NCBI RefSeq assembly: GCF_016863275.1
Contig: NZ_BOOO01000004.1
Location: 248,001-312,000 of the forward strand
Direction of reading: 5' to 3'
Source of the DNA: Planotetraspora mira
GTDB lineage: Bacteria > Actinomycetota > Actinomycetes > Streptosporangiales > Streptosporangiaceae
DNA length: 64,000 nt
A model generated the notes under the pieces. That model was given only the letters and a program-made list of their open reading frames with translations, was not told where the DNA came from and searched no databases. The translations under genes were made by a program, and so were the position numbers. Below, piece by piece: positions 34,808-41,391 of this stretch (position 1 is its first letter; every line of letters begins with the position of its first letter).

Positions 34808-34949
34808 CCCGTAGGGGAACCCTCGATCGAAACAGATGCCCGCAGTGGCCGAACGGCCCTGGCACTCGGGGACCTCCGCCTCCTGTGCGGAGCGCCGCTC
34901 TCCGGTGGAATGGGAGGCGTGGCCGCGTCGCGGACGTGAGGGGCTGATC

Positions 34950-35645
34950 ATGCACATGAAGGTGCGGGACGTCATGTCCAGGCAGATCGTGTCCGTCAAC
35001 GGCTGCACGCCGTTCAGGGACGTCGCCGAGGTGCTGCACACCCACGGCGTGAGCGCCGTACCGGTGGTCGACGGCGAGGGCCACGTGCTCGGCGTCGTCT
35101 CGGAGGCCGATCTGCTCCGCAAGGAGGAGTTCAGGGAGCAGTTCTACGGCGAGGGCTACCGTCCTCCCCTGCGTGTGCGGCTCCGTGAGCGCATCGGCTC
35201 GCCCGGCAGGAGTCCCGCGGTGAAGGCCCGGGGCGAGACCGCCGCCCAGTTGATGACGGCGCCCGCCATCACGGCCAGGCCGTACACCAGCGCCGTGAGC
35301 GCGGCCCGGCTCATGAGCGAGCACGGCGTCAAGCGGCTGCCCGTGGTCGACGACGAGGGACGGCTCGAGGGCGTGGTCAGCCGTACCGACCTGCTCAAGA
35401 CGATCGTCAGGAGCGACGAGGAGGTGGCCCGCGAGATCCGTGACGACATCGTCGAGGGCGCCCTGTGGGCGGACACCTCGCACGTCCGCGTGTCGGTGGC
35501 CGACGCCGTGGTCACGCTCAGCGGCACGATGCCCCTGCGGGGCGACGTCCTGACGCTCGTACGGATGACCGAACGCGTCAACGGCGTGGTCGACGTGGTC
35601 GACAGGATGGACTGGGAGCGTGACGACACGCCCGAGGACGGGTGA
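34950..35645 (+). CDS. CBS-domain pair plus BON domain protein
   Basis: A 231-aa protein. ATG 34950 has GAGGGG about 6 bp upstream; ATG 34956 is possible. Two CBS domains (about 5-60 and 92-145) carry VSAVPVVDGEGHVLGVVSEADLL-type and VKRLPVVDDEGRL motifs. The last 70 residues are a BON-like domain (VSVADAVVTLSGTM). CBS pairs sense adenosine ligands. The start codon lies in TGATCATGCACA, identical to the core of the 52-bp repeats. Universal stress and DUF1876 genes lie next door. Confidence 0.9.
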   Translation: MHMKVRDVMSRQIVSVNGCTPFRDVAEVLHTHGVSAVPVVDGEGHVLGVVSEADLLRKEEFREQFYGEGYRPPLRVRLRERIGSPGRSPAVKARGETAAQLMTAPAITARPYTSAVSAARLMSEHGVKRLPVVDDEGRLEGVVSRTDLLKTIVRSDEEVAREIRDDIVEGALWADTSHVRVSVADAVVTLSGTMPLRGDVLTLVRMTERVNGVVDVVDRMDWERDDTPEDG

Positions 35646-35655
35646 CGACCGCCGC

Positions 35656-36501
35656 TCAGGGGCGGACCACGGCCACCGGGCACTGGGCGTGATGCAGGAC
35701 CGCCCGGCTGACCGATCCCAGCATCACCGACCCGAGGGCGCCTCGGCCGTGTGAGCCCACCACGAGCAGGTCCGCGGCCTTGGACGCGTCGGTCAGCGCG
35801 TCGACGGGGTGTCCGCACACGACGTCCTCCAGCATCGTCACCTCGGACCGCCGCCGCCAGGGGGCGAGCTTCTCCGCCGCCACCCGGTGCTGGGCCTCGC
35901 GCACCCCGTCGATGTCGTATGTGATCTCGGGGGCGAGCGCGTGGACGGGAAGCTGCCACGCGTAGACCGCCCGGAGCACGCTGCCGCGGAAGCGGGCCTG
36001 CGCGACGGCGTACTCGATCGCGGCCTCGCATTCGGCCGAGTCGTCGATGCCGACGACCACTTCGCCGTGCGTGTCCCTCCATCCGGGGCGCACGACGACG
36101 ACCGGGCCGTGCGTCTGGCCGGCCACATGGGTGCTGACCGAGCCGATCAGGATTCCGGCGAACCCGCCGAGGCCTCTCGTGCCGAGCACGATCTCGGCCG
36201 CTTCCTTGGCCTTGTCACGAAGGATCTTGGCGGGCAGCCCCTCGATGATCTCGATGCTGACCGTCACGTCGGGCTGGCGCTTGTTCGCCGCCGCCTCCGC
36301 CTCGGCCAGCGCCCGCTCGGCGTGCAGCGTCAAGGGGTCGCCCGCGGTGGTGGGGAACTTCACGATGCCGTACGCCCAGCGATCGACGACGTACACAAGG
36401 CGCAACGGGCGTCCCTGCCGGACGGCGTCGTCCGCCGCCCATTCCACGGCTGCCAGCGCGGCGGCCGAGCCGTCGGTGCCGACGATGATCGGATCGGGCA
36501 T
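35656..36501 (-). CDS. universal stress protein, tandem UspA domains
   Basis: A 281-aa protein with two UspA domains. ATG 36501 follows an AGGAAG-type ribosome site; a start at 36519 is also possible. The first domain begins IIVGTDGSAAALAAVEWA and ends VLGTRGLGGFAGILIGSVS; the second has VVGSHGRGALGSVMLGSVS, both with the ATP-binding G-x2-G-x9-G-(S/T) pattern. It converges on the CBS gene with a 10-bp gap. Dormancy or stress induction is likely but not shown. Confidence 0.92.
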   Translation of the reverse strand: MPDPIIVGTDGSAAALAAVEWAADDAVRQGRPLRLVYVVDRWAYGIVKFPTTAGDPLTLHAERALAEAEAAANKRQPDVTVSIEIIEGLPAKILRDKAKEAAEIVLGTRGLGGFAGILIGSVSTHVAGQTHGPVVVVRPGWRDTHGEVVVGIDDSAECEAAIEYAVAQARFRGSVLRAVYAWQLPVHALAPEITYDIDGVREAQHRVAAEKLAPWRRRSEVTMLEDVVCGHPVDALTDASKAADLLVVGSHGRGALGSVMLGSVSRAVLHHAQCPVAVVRP

Positions 36502-36623
36502 GGGCTTTCCTTCCTTCATCGGGCGTTGCCGCGCGGTTCCCGGCCGGCCGGCGTCGCAGGAGGCCGAAAGTCCCTTCCGGCCGCGATTCCCCTGGGGGGA
36601 TGCTGGAGCGGGAGGTGTTCGTC

Positions 36624-36893
36624 ATGGAAACCAAACGATGGACGGTGGAGGTCTTCCTGACCGAGGACGAGAGCGACAACGTCACCAGCGCGACCGCGGT
36701 GCTGTACACCGACGCGGGACGCAGGCACGAGAGCGTCGCCCACGCCCGCCGCAATCCCACGGACCGCCCGGTGCCGGAGATCGGCGACGAACTGGCCGTC
36801 GGCCGGGCGTTGTCGGATCTGGCGGCCAAGCTGATCGGCGACGGGGCCGAGGACGTCGCCCAGTTGGCCGGATCGGCGCGCGAGCGGCGCTGA
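36624..36893 (+). CDS. DUF1876 domain protein
   Basis: An 89-aa protein. ATG 36624 is preceded by GGAGG at 8 bp. The sequence begins ETKRWTVEVFLTEDESDN and contains HARRNPTDRPVPEIGDELA, the usual DUF1876 pattern, a dsRNA-binding-like fold of unknown job. The family often lies near universal stress and CBS genes in actinobacteria, as here. Confidence 0.9.
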   Translation: METKRWTVEVFLTEDESDNVTSATAVLYTDAGRRHESVAHARRNPTDRPVPEIGDELAVGRALSDLAAKLIGDGAEDVAQLAGSARERR

Positions 36894-36919: not shown

Positions 36920-39178
36920 TCAATGGAGCGGGTCAGCGGCTCGCTGGCCGGCGATGAGCCCCGCTGCGCCCATCTCCCTGGTCAGCCACGCGAGCGCGGC
37001 CTCCCCGTCCTGCTGCCGGTTCCGTACGCCTCCCTCATGGGCCGCGCCTCCCTCATGGGCCGCGTGTCCCCCTGATGTCACACCCGCCGCCGGAACCCCG
37101 TCGGACGCGTGAGTCGCGTTCGCCGTCGGCACGCCATCCGCATCGGCGCCCTGTCCCGCCGCCTTCGCCGGGTCACCGTCACCGGCCGGTACGGCGCCCG
37201 CCATCGGATCCGAGCCGTTCGAGGCCGTGGGGGCGCTCCCGGCCGCCCCGCCGCCGGGTGTCTGCCCGGGGTGGTCGGCAGGCGTGAGCCCGTTGGCCGG
37301 CATGAGCCCGTCGAAGGGCACGGGACCGTTCATGACGGCCATGCCGTCCTGCGGCGCGAAGCCGTTGACCGCCGCGAGCGTGACCCCCGTCCCGGGGACG
37401 GTGCCCGCCGCCTGGACGTCCCCGGACATGGCCGCCCGGCCCGTGGCGAGGGGCAGCAGCCCGGCGAGGCCCATCTCGGCGGTGAGTTCGGCGGACAGCC
37501 TCCGCACCTCCTCAGGCTGCGGCCTCACCCGCATGAGCGCCGGGCCCAGGGCGCGCAGCACATTCGGCAGCCCCGCTCCCGTCCGGTACGGATCACCGAG
37601 ATCGAGCGCCTGACAACTGGCCCTGATGACGTGGAAGAGTCGGTCGACCCTGCGGGCGTCGCGCCGGCCGTACGCGTAGTGGAAGTCATCGTGATGGGCG
37701 AGCACCAGAGCGGCCAGCCCGGTGACGTGCGGCGCGGCCATGGAGGTTCCGTCCCAGGCGGCGTACGTCTCCGGAGGGACGCACGACAGGACGGCGACTC
37801 CCGGAGCGCACACGTCCACCTCGGGCCCGCGGCACGTGAATCGGGGCGAGAAGTAGCCCTCGCCCGTCACCGGCCCCCGGATCTCGGCGGCGTGCCCGCT
37901 GCCGCCGGGGAACGTCCCCACCTTCCCGATCGCGGCCACCGTCAGCACGGTCGGAAGGTTGCCGGGGAAGCCGACGGAGCCGCCGTCGCTTCCGGCGGCG
38001 ACCACGCACGCCACCCCCGCCCGGCGCGCCTCCTCGATCTTCGCGGCGACGAGCCGCGAGGAATGGCGGCTGCCGAGGCTGAGGTTCATCACGTCGATGC
38101 GCTGCTCGATGCAGTAGTCGAGCGCCTCGATGAGGTCGCTGAACCGGCCACCGGGGAATATCTTGCAGGCGTGGACCTCCGCCTCCGCGGCGAAGCCCAC
38201 GATGCCCCGCCCGTCGTCCCCACCCGCGATGATCCCGGCGCAGTGAGAGCCGTGGTGGGCGGTGTCGTCCGTCCAGCCGTCCGGCTTTCCCCCCGCCAGA
38301 TCGATGCCGCACGTCACCCGGCCGAGGAGATCGGAATGCTCGGCCGCCGCCCCCGAGTCGATGATCGCGATCTTGACTCCCGCGCCGCTCAGGGCCCGCG
38401 GGAGACGGTCGAGATCCATCGCCCTCTGTCCCCAGCCGAAGACCTGCCGCCCGGGGAATCCCTCGAGTCCGTCGGACAACCCCGCAGCCTCGATCAGGTT
38501 CTCCCGGCTCGACGACAGGGCCGGTCGCTCCACATACGAGCTCCAGTGGCCGGATCGCGGCCTGACCAGCAGGCTGACGATCGACTCCGCCGTCTCGCCC
38601 ACCATCGTGACCGTGGCGCGGCCGTCCGGCCCGGTCACCGCCTGGGCGGGCCAGCCGGACCCGGTCAGCATGACGACGGCCCCCGGCACCGGCGTGCCGT
38701 CGGAGCCCTGGACCAGGAACGCGAAGGTGCTCTCCGTCCCCAGAGGCGGCGCGGCCGACGCCTGCCTCCTCTTCCGTGGCGGCGAAGGGACCTCGCTGTA
38801 GGTCAGCAGCCGGTCGCGTTCGATGTGCACCTGGGGCAGCCGCCGTCGCAGGGCGGCCGCGTGCTCGACGGTCATGTCCGCGACCACGACGGCCGGGAAG
38901 GCCCGGGCTCCCATGCCCGGCTCCGCGGCCGTCGTGGGAAGCCTGCGGCGTACGGCGACCTCGGGATCGCTCTCGAGCAGCCGGTGCAGCCCGTCGGCGT
39001 CGAGAGCCTGGCCGTCCGTCCCCGCCTGCGGATGAGCCTGGGGTGGCAGCGCGACCATGTAGCGCAGCGGACGCGGCAGCACCGGCTGCGGGCCCTGCCG
39101 CGACGTCTGCCGCGACCGGTTCGGGCCCGGCGGGCGCGACTGCCCGCTTCCGTTCTTGGGCTTGTCGTCACTGGTCAC
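36920..39178 (-). CDS. leaderless subtilisin-like (S8) serine protease
   Basis: A 752-aa protein without a signal peptide. Residues about 40-130 look like a prodomain, about 150-205 like a small beta-sandwich (DGTPVPGAVVMLTG, DGRATVTM), then the S8 catalytic domain: Asp274 (IIDSG), His309 (HGSHCAG) and Ser479 (GTSMAAPH). The position of the usual oxyanion Asn is Ser397 (VVAAGSDGG). The C-terminal 190 residues are Gly/Ala/Asp-rich. They are bounded by two related pieces, LTAEMGLAGLL (565-575) and LTREMGAAGLI near the end. It is the last gene of a three-gene operon with a Gln-rich protein. Confidence 0.9.
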   Translation of the reverse strand: MTSDDKPKNGSGQSRPPGPNRSRQTSRQGPQPVLPRPLRYMVALPPQAHPQAGTDGQALDADGLHRLLESDPEVAVRRRLPTTAAEPGMGARAFPAVVVADMTVEHAAALRRRLPQVHIERDRLLTYSEVPSPPRKRRQASAAPPLGTESTFAFLVQGSDGTPVPGAVVMLTGSGWPAQAVTGPDGRATVTMVGETAESIVSLLVRPRSGHWSSYVERPALSSSRENLIEAAGLSDGLEGFPGRQVFGWGQRAMDLDRLPRALSGAGVKIAIIDSGAAAEHSDLLGRVTCGIDLAGGKPDGWTDDTAHHGSHCAGIIAGGDDGRGIVGFAAEAEVHACKIFPGGRFSDLIEALDYCIEQRIDVMNLSLGSRHSSRLVAAKIEEARRAGVACVVAAGSDGGSVGFPGNLPTVLTVAAIGKVGTFPGGSGHAAEIRGPVTGEGYFSPRFTCRGPEVDVCAPGVAVLSCVPPETYAAWDGTSMAAPHVTGLAALVLAHHDDFHYAYGRRDARRVDRLFHVIRASCQALDLGDPYRTGAGLPNVLRALGPALMRVRPQPEEVRRLSAELTAEMGLAGLLPLATGRAAMSGDVQAAGTVPGTGVTLAAVNGFAPQDGMAVMNGPVPFDGLMPANGLTPADHPGQTPGGGAAGSAPTASNGSDPMAGAVPAGDGDPAKAAGQGADADGVPTANATHASDGVPAAGVTSGGHAAHEGGAAHEGGVRNRQQDGEAALAWLTREMGAAGLIAGQRAADPLH

Positions 39179-39242
39179 TGCGTCCCGACTTTCCCCAGCT
39201 CAGGCTGGTCTCACTGGCCGCACCCTCGCGGGCTCGACCGGA

Positions 39243-39581
39243 TCAGGCGATCGGCCGGGTCACCGGGGCTGCGGACCAGTGACCCGTGGCGATGCTGTCG
39301 AGCACCGACTGGATCTGCGCCACGCACGCCTCGTGCTGCCCGGCCCGGTAGAGCTGCACCGCCCGCACCACCAGAGGAACGATCCCGGCGACCTGCGGCG
39401 CCTGTGGGATGGTCGCCTGCAGCCAGCCGTAGAGCTGCTGCAGGCTCATGGCGCAGTGCACCTGCAGGAGGCCGGATGGTCCGGGCCGCCCCGGGCCCGG
39501 CGACATCGCCGGGCCCGTGACCGCACCCATCCCACCCGAGCCGGCACCGGGACCCAGCGGTCCCCCACCGATCGAGTCCAC
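39243..39581 (-). CDS. 112-aa protein of the Gln-rich/protease operon
   Basis: GTG 39581 follows GGAGG by 7 bp and lies 14 bp after the stop of the Gln-rich gene, 64 bp before the protease gene. The first 40 residues are Gly/Pro-rich. The rest is helical (SLQQLYGWLQ, VAGIVPLVVRAVQLYRAG, EACVAQIQSVLDSI). I do not recognise a family. Its placement suggests an adaptor between substrate and protease; this is only inference. Confidence 0.7.
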   Translation of the reverse strand: MDSIGGGPLGPGAGSGGMGAVTGPAMSPGPGRPGPSGLLQVHCAMSLQQLYGWLQATIPQAPQVAGIVPLVVRAVQLYRAGQHEACVAQIQSVLDSIATGHWSAAPVTRPIA

Positions 39582-39595
39582 CTCGCGTCCTCCGC

Positions 39596-40375
39596 TCAGA
39601 ACCCGGAGCCGGCGGCCACCGGAGCCTGCTGGGGGGACACCTGCTGGCCGGCCTGGCCGAACGCCATGGGCATCTGCTGCTGCAGGTGATGTACGGCCTG
39701 GCCGTACACCATGGGCTGCTGCTGCAGCGCCTGGCCGAACGCCGCCGGCACCTGCTGCTGCAGGTGGTGCGGGGCGACCTGACCCTGCTGCTGCGGGAAG
39801 TGCTGGGCCTGGCCGAACGCCATGGCCGTCTGCTGCAGCGACTGCGGCAGCTGCTGAGCCATCTGGTTGGCCATCTGGTGCTGAGCCAACTGATGCTGGG
39901 CCAGCTGCTGGAGTGGCGACACCTGACCGAGCTGCTGGAAGGCGACCTGCTGAGAGGCCACCTGCTGGAGCTGGATGCCGTCGAGGATCTGCCTGACGAC
40001 GGCGGCGCCATGCCGGGCACCGATGTGAGCGACCTTGTTCCAGAAGGTGACCGGGCTCAGCACGTGTTCCTGCGGCAGGATCTGCTCATCCTGCGGCACC
40101 ACGGCCCCGAGCGGCGACATCTGCTGCAGCGCCTGCGCCTGCTGCAGTGCCTGGACCTGAGCCTGTGCCTGCTGCAAGGCCTGGAGCTGAGCCTGTGCCT
40201 GCTGCAGGACCTGAGCCTGCTGCAGCACCTGTAGCTGCTGAAGCGCCTGCATGTTCGGCGCGTGGATCGAGGATGCCGGGGACATCTGACCGAGGTGCTG
40301 AGGAGAGAGCTGCTGCTGAGAGCCGAATCCCAGCGGCATGGCCATGGACGTGGGGTTCATCGTCGTGAACGTCAT
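39596..40375 (-). CDS. glutamine-rich repeat protein (259 aa)
   Basis: First gene of the operon; GGAGA precedes ATG 40375. By my hand count about 73 of 259 residues are Gln. It has almost no charged residues (one Lys, two Arg) and no Cys. Residues about 42-88 are a coiled-coil-like LQQ-AQ heptad stretch. A short folded-looking segment follows (FWNKVAHIGARHGAAVVRQI). The C-terminal 75 residues repeat a unit of the type MAFGQA-HHLQQQ-P about four times. There is no signal peptide. It resembles prion-like or phase-separating proteins; no function is known to me. Confidence 0.75.
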   Translation of the reverse strand: MTFTTMNPTSMAMPLGFGSQQQLSPQHLGQMSPASSIHAPNMQALQQLQVLQQAQVLQQAQAQLQALQQAQAQVQALQQAQALQQMSPLGAVVPQDEQILPQEHVLSPVTFWNKVAHIGARHGAAVVRQILDGIQLQQVASQQVAFQQLGQVSPLQQLAQHQLAQHQMANQMAQQLPQSLQQTAMAFGQAQHFPQQQGQVAPHHLQQQVPAAFGQALQQQPMVYGQAVHHLQQQMPMAFGQAGQQVSPQQAPVAAGSGF

Positions 40376-40572
40376 AGTGTCTCCTTCGAGCCAGGTAGGT
40401 CTGGCTCATCGCCCATGCGATTACACCCCGTGACAATTCAGACACGCAACGCTATATGCGTAATGATATGACTAAGCCCGATTTGACCTGATTCATCGTG
40501 GCCCGGAAAGATCAGAACGAAGATCGCGGAGGACTCGGCGGTCACCCAACGTCACCACGAGGAGGGGCGCGG

Positions 40573-41391
40573 ATGAACGACCTGCCCATCTGCCTGACCT
40601 GTGGCGTCCAGTACGCCGGCAGCCGCGAGGACTGCCCGATCTGCGAGGACGAGCGGCAGTACGTCGGCTGGGACGGCCAGCGGTGGACCTCGCTCGACGC
40701 GTTGCGCCGGGCGGGACATCGGGCCCGGATCGAGGAGGAGGGCCCGGGCGTCGTCGGCGTCGGTACGGTGCCGGCCACCGGGATCGGCCAGCGGGCGCTG
40801 CTCGTCCGGACGCCTGCGGGAAACGTGTTGTGGGACATGGTCACCTACCTCGACGACGACGTCATCAGGCAGGTGCGCGATCTCGGCGGGATCAGCGCGA
40901 TCGCGATCAGCCACCCGCACTACTACGGCACCATGGTCGACTGGGCGCACGCGTTCGACGCACCCGTCTACATCCACGCGCTGGACCGCGAGTGGGTGGC
41001 GCGTCCCGACGACTCGGTCGTCTTCTGGGAGGGCGACACCCATGAGATCGGCGACGGTCTCACCCTGGTCAACGCCGGGGTCCACTTCGCGGGCGGCCAG
41101 GTGCTGCACTGGCGGGACGCCCCGGACAGCGCCGGCGCCCTGTTCTCCGGCGACATCCTGCAGGTCGTCAAGGACCGCCGCTGGGTCGGCTTCATGTACA
41201 GCTACCCGAACCTCATCCCGGAGCGGCCCCGCACCGTGCGCCGGGCCCTGTCACTGCTGGAGCGGTACCCGTTCGACCAGGTCTACGGAGCCTGGTGGAA
41301 GCACGTGGTGCGCACCGACGGGTCGGAGGCCGTCCGCCGCTCCGCGGAGCGCTACCTGGACTTCGCCCTGGACGACGCGCCGCCCGTGTGA
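40573..41391 (+). CDS. MBL-fold hydrolase with N-terminal zinc ribbon
   Basis: A 272-aa protein. ATG 40573 has GGAGGGG 8 bp upstream, which is better than GTG 40498. The N-terminus has CLTC and CPIC (Cys7, Cys10, Cys21, Cys24), a probable zinc ribbon. The metallo-beta-lactamase core shows SHPHYYG (His114, His116) in place of HxHxDH and LFSGDIL. The Asp and His of the second metal site are absent, so a single-metal or altered reaction is possible. It is divergent from the Gln-rich operon across 197 bp. Confidence 0.85.
   Translation: MNDLPICLTCGVQYAGSREDCPICEDERQYVGWDGQRWTSLDALRRAGHRARIEEEGPGVVGVGTVPATGIGQRALLVRTPAGNVLWDMVTYLDDDVIRQVRDLGGISAIAISHPHYYGTMVDWAHAFDAPVYIHALDREWVARPDDSVVFWEGDTHEIGDGLTLVNAGVHFAGGQVLHWRDAPDSAGALFSGDILQVVKDRRWVGFMYSYPNLIPERPRTVRRALSLLERYPFDQVYGAWWKHVVRTDGSEAVRRSAERYLDFALDDAPPV

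Follow-up and report, generated by a model that had tools for sequence, protein, structure and literature searches.

A conserved actinobacterial gene set pairing a glutamine-rich repeat protein with a leaderless subtilase

Introduction

Why is a subtilase without a signal peptide encoded beside a glutamine-rich protein that carries almost no charge, and do the two work together? The question is raised by three adjacent genes of Planotetraspora mira, a mycelial soil bacterium of the Streptosporangiaceae with a genome of 9.03 Mb. The window analyzed here is a stretch of 64,000 nucleotides (assembly GCF_016863275.1, contig NZ_BOOO01000004.1, positions 248,001 to 312,000), and all coordinates below count from its first letter. 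The set lies on the minus strand. Gene 1 (39596..40375) has an ATG start and encodes a low-complexity protein of 259 amino acids that is rich in glutamine (Gln). Gene 2 (39243..39581, GTG start) encodes a protein of 112 amino acids, and gene 3 (36920..39178, GTG start) encodes an S8 family subtilase of 752 amino acids.

The genes are read in the order 1, 2, 3 and are separated by 14 and 64 bp, as described in a first-pass annotation made from the letters of the DNA. The annotation gave each gene its own ribosome site. By eye, the Shine-Dalgarno (SD) sequences GAAGGAG of gene 1 and GGAGG of gene 2 are clear, and that of gene 3 is weak. Judged by hydropathy, none of the three products has a hydrophobic N-terminal segment or signal peptide, in agreement with what was first reported for gene 1 and the protease. 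The best 19-residue Kyte-Doolittle means within residues 1-60 are 0.36 for gene 1, 0.58 for gene 2, and -0.07 for gene 3. A 19-residue mean of 1.6 is reached by 0 of 37 homologous proteases, so that by hydropathy neither these nor the window's protease look like secreted subtilisins. The window's gene-1 and gene-2 proteins have nothing at cut-off in Pfam and no matches in NCBIfam.

Conservation of the three-gene set

Genome samples were even draws from larger groups, and trees and ratios of nonsynonymous to synonymous substitution (dN/dS) were obtained by simple methods. Gene 2 is present in 39 of 297 sampled genomes of the family and missing from 258. In the same 297 genomes, the N-terminal region of the protease matches 42 at an expect value (E) of 1e-3 or better and 40 at E 1e-10 or better; two weak matches, and also a partial match in genome G133 (E 6.6e-11), were left out of the family protease counts (n = 42). 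All 39 gene-2 genomes fall within the 40 strong protease matches. Protease homologues lacking the other two genes in most genomes would have spoken against the earlier proposal of a functional unit; in the family sample, 39 of the 40 strong-match genomes also hold gene 2, which supports the proposal.

The class sample comprises 394 genomes. The gene-2 profile matches 13 of them and the protease N-terminal region 21, of which 14 are at E 1e-14 or better, and all 13 lie among these 14. Seven of the 13 match by construction and are no independent test, because they supplied rows of the profile. Gene 2 of the other-family loci was first recognized as an open frame next to the protease. The remaining seven of the 21 protease matches are weak (E 4e-5 to 8e-4) and were left out of the counts; in one of these, L097, the three-gene set was looked for and not found. 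Among 296 genomes of the phylum sample, the gene-2 profile matched the window's own genome alone.

The loci analyzed are 38 from the family and three of another family (L093-L095). The protease adjoins gene 2 in 38/38 and 3/3 of these, respectively. All 38 family loci are counted as carrying the protease because a rerun on L050 recovered a match that tblastn had first missed. Gene 1 was found by tblastn in 30 of the 38 loci and read from open frames in the remainder. Across the actinobacterial samples, a search for the set in its order, as the first-pass annotation had suggested, found the three genes so arranged in 41 of 41 loci open to assessment, window included, with a Gln-rich or repeat-bearing gene upstream of gene 2. 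The position of gene 1 could not be assessed in L069, which ends with the contig, and L094 holds the gene-1 tail alone. Named carriers are Planotetraspora, Microbispora, Sphaerimonospora, Acrocarpospora, Nonomuraea, Actinomadura viridilutea, and Thermomonospora echinospora.

The coding sequences of all three genes are under purifying selection. Computed for ten pairs among five sequences from the genus, dN/dS ranges from 0.30 to 0.62 in gene 1, from 0.26 to 0.60 in gene 2, and from 0.24 to 0.44 in gene 3. The value for gene 1 answers a specific doubt, as the operon had been held to be no functional unit if its Gln-rich frame showed no such selection. The set is more than a chance arrangement because its orthologues keep the same order, dN/dS is below 1, and the region upstream is conserved. 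On this comparative evidence, the three genes form a real conserved functional unit. No description of the set was found in full-text literature searches, whose scope left out most subscription papers, and within that scope the earlier statement that no such system has been described stands.

The glutamine-rich protein and its helical module

Gln makes up 73 of the 259 residues of gene 1 (28.2%), close to the first hand count of about 28%, and Asn 1.5%. The four units of MAFGQA type that had been noticed are present, as MAFGQA, AAFGQA, MVYGQA, and MAFGQA. His (n = 12) aside, the protein has seven charged residues (D96, E97, E103, K114, R121, R128, and D132), all confined to residues 96-132. 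These fall within a conserved, predicted helical module at residues 95-137 (39965..40093, minus strand), which is single or repeated in relatives.

Among 19 aligned relatives, two from Planotetraspora are 94 and 84% identical to gene 1, and the other 17, including two further Planotetraspora, are 40-55% identical. Conserved across the 20 aligned proteins are an MTF start and a module around LPQEHLVSPVTFWxKVARxxxRYGAPxxRQxLE, and most also have a VPVxAGxG tail. In 10 of 10 pairs, dN of the module is lower than dN of the low-complexity rest of gene 1. Between the window and L115, dN is 0.156 for the module versus 0.483 for the rest, with dS of 0.507 and 0.756. Pfam searches with 20 gene-1 members gave nothing in common and one collagen-repeat match in one member.

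The module occurs twice in gene 1 of L047, L049, L053, and L059. In another clade, gene 1 carries units typified by MVPAELVSTLVGLGVTFGPSLVKGILDLF: there are three in L066, along with a partial fourth one, three in L067, and two in L070. Compared with the main gene-1 module, these units reach an hhalign probability of 89.5 (E 2e-6). Gly-rich repeats stand alongside the module in L057, L058, and L061 and replace it in L095. Given this repetition across relatives, the gene-1 protein seems to be built as a string of short helical units with low-complexity linkers between them.

The LQQ-AQ repeats were at first called coiled-coil-like. The heptad hydrophobic moment, compared with shuffles and with no dedicated coiled-coil predictor, does not support this description: for residues 41-92, the moment at 102.9 degrees is 0.031, which 947 of 1000 shuffles reach. 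The hydrophobicity of this region peaks at 112-114 degrees (0.30) and at 180 degrees (0.31).

A chain of this kind could be a substrate. The subtilase might cleave the gene-1 protein and so set free short helical pieces, either amphipathic or hydrophobic, that act on membranes or as signals, the Gln/Gly-rich stretches serving as spacers. Tandem units do lie between Gln/Gly-rich linkers in L066-L068 and L070, as do Gly-rich units in L057, L058, L061, and L095. By the best 18-residue helical moment, 10 of 13 hand-chosen units are more amphipathic than 2000 shuffles at p < 0.05; 3 of the 13 are not. The window's own gene-1 protein, however, has a single module and no transmembrane-grade hydrophobic segment. 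Considered together with the catalytic losses described below, this substrate-protease pairing is rather unlikely.

Domains and catalytic residues of the subtilase

Gene 3 matches PF00082 with 131.7 bits (cut-off 21.8, E 4.4e-38), as do 25 of 25 aligned members, and it matches subtilisins of the PDB at E 2.8e-34. The S8 catalytic domain spans residues 265-499 (37682..38386, minus strand). The catalytic residues Asp274, His309, and Ser479 are present in the window, and of 43 S8 proteins checked, 40 have the complete triad, as a cleaving enzyme would require. The oxyanion Asn is replaced by Ser in the window (VVAAGSDGG), in its three nearest relatives (L034-L036), and in L062. Among the 43 proteins, Asp occupies this position in L060, L063, L071, and L096, and Asn in the other 34. 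In work on subtilisin, such changes reportedly lower activity and need not abolish it. The replacement in the window is a substitution and is no proof of inactivity.

Two domains precede the catalytic domain. The first (residues 36-122; 38813..39073, minus strand) is predicted to fold as beta-alpha-beta-beta-alpha-beta, a prodomain-like topology that is also the topology of the subtilisin prodomain. A separate gene for a related domain of ~75-105 residues lies between genes 2 and 3 in L067, L068, L069, L070, and L095, and in L066 the related N-terminal domain is in frame ahead of the protease. The second (residues 149-231; 38486..38734, minus strand) is a predicted beta domain resembling immunoglobulin (Ig)-like and CarboxypepD_reg domains. 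Its model has PDB matches to Ig-like domains, and the Ig-like family Big_1 is weakly matched near residues 149-200 in 25 of 25 gene-3 members at E up to 0.1, the window's match being below the curated cut-off. The model covers residues 1-581 with a mean predicted local distance difference test (pLDDT) score of 46.8; it is poor, and therefore no active-site geometry is claimed.

The region after the catalytic domain carries a conserved motif of consensus aLxxLxxEMxxAGL. In the window, copy 1 is LSAELTAEMGLAGL (residues 561-574; 37457..37498, minus strand) and copy 2 is LTREMGAAGL (residues 732-741; 36956..36985, minus strand). One or two copies are found in 42 of 42 proteins from gene-2 loci, with L068 counted by eye and L046 and L052 cut by contig ends, the first copy being visible. 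A tie between this motif and gene 2 was considered and rejected: L096, L135, and L136 lack the motif, yet L146 and L147 have it without gene 2.

A pseudoprotease branch in Streptomycetaceae

A two-gene version of the set is found in seven loci, namely two Streptomyces plasmid records (L135 and L136), genome G464 (L096), and four further genomes (L145-L148). The family of the L096 and L145-L148 genomes is probably Streptomycetaceae, as judged by the clustering of their proteins with those of the two named Streptomyces plasmids. An upstream gene with 22-32% Gln is present in all seven loci (in L147 as a partial reading frame), and between it and the S8 gene there is no coding-like frame of at least 50 residues. 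Strong matches occur in 5 of 150 sampled genomes of L096's family; this sample gave 8 matches, of which 3 weak ones were left out of the counts, as was a second site in plasmid record H2.

The catalytic Ser is lost in 7/7 Streptomycetaceae loci, being Ala in six and Thr in one. L096 is counted both among these seven and among the 43 S8 proteins. In a tree of 49 catalytic domains, the Streptomycetaceae S8 proteins form one clade with support 1.0. Separate losses are seen in L071 (both His and Ser replaced by Gly) and L063 (His replaced by Arg), both of which keep the full set, and L063 keeps its repeats as well. These dead copies count against the substrate-protease pairing, and the turnover of gene 1 by the protease that was originally proposed does not hold as a general rule.

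Cutting cannot be the whole story, because the Streptomycetaceae keep a Gln-rich gene beside an S8 protein without its Ser. That the Gln-rich gene and the subtilase stay paired after catalysis is lost speaks in favor of a role for the subtilase fold in binding. This suggests that the two partners work together by more than simple cutting. For the window's own subtilase, with its complete triad, the loss in Streptomycetaceae does not speak against catalysis.

In the Gln-rich proteins of L135 and L145-L148, the helical region is longer, and its end aligns weakly with the gene-1 module at an almost matching register; the L096 and L136 proteins are of a different kind. Gene 2 was compared with this helical region, and no likeness was found.

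The 112-residue protein

Gene 2 has a Gly/Pro-rich N-terminus followed by three predicted helices (residues 35-57, 62-79, and 83-99). About 60 residues are conserved. The structure model also has three helices, with a core pLDDT of 75-85 by block. The closest named relative, from Planotetraspora silvatica, is 96% identical. The window's protein has no match to a known family in Pfam, NCBIfam, or PADLOC, and 25 members searched against Pfam gave scattered matches only (best E 0.009, in 2 of 25). No solved relative was found by PDB sequence, and the best Foldseek match has E 2.7.

A proposed scaffold-controlled subtilase

Taken together, the module, the predicted domains, and the pseudoprotease branch point tentatively to a multivalent cytoplasmic scaffold, the gene-1 protein, that binds and controls a latent subtilase; we give this reading somewhat less than an even chance. 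The operon would encode a two- or three-part cytoplasmic complex. In it, the gene-1 protein would be a flexible multivalent scaffold with Gln-rich linkers around one or several helical modules. The subtilase may be held latent by its N-terminal prodomain-like domain, as its predicted topology and the related stand-alone domain gene of some relatives suggest. The scaffold module, the 112-residue three-helix protein, or both would dock the subtilase, possibly through the conserved C-terminal LxxEMxxAGL motif. Gathering on the scaffold would then hold or activate the enzyme. In catalytically intact lineages, the subtilase might go on to cut the scaffold or a client. In Streptomycetaceae, where the Ser is lost, a non-catalytic binding role alone may remain.

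Several observations weigh against this reading. Gene 1 is very variable outside the main clade, with a Gly/Ala-rich protein of little Gln in L095 and a frame of 6% Gln in L070. The Streptomycetaceae Gln-rich proteins and the gene-1 module are weakly alike (E 0.06; P 0.007). The prodomain assignment comes from one low-depth model, in which the domain has a pLDDT of 53-88 by ten-residue block. The N-terminal domain has no sequence match to any known prodomain family or prosubtilisin, and because no prodomain family was found by sequence, the assignment is one of topology only. The C-terminal motif need not bind gene 2, because L146 and L147 of the Streptomycetaceae, read by eye, have the motif but lack gene 2.

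Promoter-like region and leader hairpin

About 80 bases upstream of gene 1 are conserved (20 and 18 sequences aligned). This region (40388..40465, minus strand) contains the CATTACGC element, TTGCGT (40449-40444), a spacing of 18 bp, TGTAAT (40425-40420), and a 5'-leader hairpin. Read by eye, TTGCGT-18-TGTAAT is promoter-like.

The hairpin, GAGCCAG-ACCTAC-CTGGCTC (40388..40407, minus strand), lies immediately before the SD sequence of gene 1. In 20 sequences, 137 of 140 standard pairs are kept. The changes that keep pairing are G-U, and there are no double compensatory changes. The fold-energy z-score is -3.07 for the window and -2.23 and -0.99 for two relatives; the third sequence gives the hairpin no support because its z is -0.99. 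The hairpin is a possible leader control element or operator. A regulon sharing it was considered and rejected, as the genome holds a single copy even at up to 3 mismatches. No Rfam family is matched in the window at gathering scores, and no tRNA was found there.

Neighboring genes

In 21 of 43 loci, the set is followed by a same-strand gene of cluster C3, which we take to be of universal-stress type. A small opposing gene (C4), presumably of the same stress cluster, stands beside the set in 18 of 43. These neighbors are found chiefly in Planotetraspora, Microbispora, and Sphaerimonospora; flanking genes differ in the remaining loci. The genes at 34836-36893 of the window presumably encode a CBS-pair/BON protein, a universal stress protein, and a small DUF1876-like protein.

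The set could thus serve development, dormancy, or stress, with gene 1 forming a cytoplasmic or spore structure that the subtilase matures or polices. The named carriers are mycelial actinomycetes and spore-formers, and controlled expression is suggested by the promoter region and the leader hairpin, both of which are conserved. The C3 and C4 genes would fit such a role where they are present, yet in the other half of the loci no stress gene adjoins the set, and 258 of the 297 family genomes do without gene 2. A role in development, dormancy, or stress is quite improbable.

An accessory module for defense or for controlled cell death is improbable as well; on this reading, a trigger would cause the gene-1 protein to assemble and so switch on the subtilase. 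Such modules would account for the patchy distribution (39/297 in the family and 13/394 in the class), for the two plasmid records carrying the two-gene version, and for transposase genes nearby in L135 (annotated) and in L096 and L136 (by eye). A PADLOC subtilase model also matches (E 3.9e-22), but the match is confined to the catalytic domain and IetS scores are weak. A search of 50,697 phage records gave no match to the N-terminal region of the protease, and the clusters that flank the set in three or more loci include no sensor or NTPase family. The main-clade neighbors are what we take to be stress-type genes, with no defense island.

Other neighbors recur less widely. A divergent gene at 40498-41391 (plus strand, cluster C14), conserved next to the set in 7 of 43 loci, presumably encodes a protein with a zinc ribbon and a metallo-beta-lactamase-like domain. 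In two of the 43 loci, L061 and L068, from different lineages, same-strand proteins with hemopexin-like repeats are encoded near the set; we assume the repeats to be joined to cell-wall-active or lysozyme-like domains. L057 and L058 have two tandem genes downstream of the set (proteins inspected in L057), which are presumably Ser/Thr-kinase-like with possible beta-propeller tails.

Comparison with known systems

Gene 3 shares with PF00082 subtilisins that have a removable prodomain the S8 domain, the Asp/His/Ser triad, and a prodomain-like predicted N-terminal topology. Unlike these enzymes, it has no signal peptide and possesses an intervening Ig-like domain, a C-terminal motif, fixed neighbors, and an oxyanion Ser.

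QhpE and PatA/PatG are cytoplasmic maturation subtilases with a dedicated substrate, and they likewise are leaderless subtilases encoded beside a partner. The models NF049966 (QhpE) and TIGR03895 (PatA/PatG) are matched by 25 of 25 aligned gene-3 members at E up to 0.001. The window's protein scores below both curated cut-offs, with 63.5 versus 165 bits for NF049966 and 31.3 versus 421 bits for TIGR03895. Unlike those systems, the unit has no peptide-modifying gene, and its Streptomycetaceae version is catalytically dead.

CspC and CspBA are pseudoprotease subtilases of clostridial germination. The likeness lies in a subtilase fold retained after the loss of catalytic residues. They occur in other organisms, and the window's protein stays far under the cut-offs of their models (NF040808 and NF040809), with 16.3 versus 675 bits and 22 versus 1250 bits. 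The mycosin of the type VII secretion system (TIGR03921) is not matched at cut-off by gene 3 (97.3 versus 278.75 bits). The IetAS anti-phage system (NF042956) shares the S8 domain, but the IetS score is 10.8 versus 900 bits, and there is no ATPase gene within the three-gene unit.

Stand-alone inhibitors resembling subtilase propeptides are reported, e.g., for SUB1 (PMC6993865). The prodomain-like protein that has a gene of its own in L067-L070 and L095 may be comparable to these, a likeness of predicted topology. Prion-like proteins have been described in bacteria (PMC6400439), and gene 1 resembles them in its Gln-rich, low-complexity composition. It differs in being poor in Asn and in having a conserved, charged helical module; judged by composition, the first suggestion of a prion-like protein is not supported.

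The gene-1 helical module is new here, as are the prodomain-like N-terminal domain, the Ig-like domain, and the C-terminal motif of gene 3.

Significance

The set ties bacterial low-complexity, Gln-rich proteins to a dedicated protease through gene order kept across families. The Streptomycetaceae, where catalysis is lost, offer a natural experiment on functions of the complex other than cutting, as well as a way to test for scaffold-controlled proteolysis in bacteria. The fullest version of the scaffold reading is doubtful: the comparisons would fit an actinobacterial system, so far undescribed, in which a Gln-rich, multivalent scaffold bearing a short helical module captures a subtilase and its assembly sets the activity, one lineage having made the enzyme a pure binding partner. 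If true, protease and pseudoprotease versions of one machine would be directly comparable.

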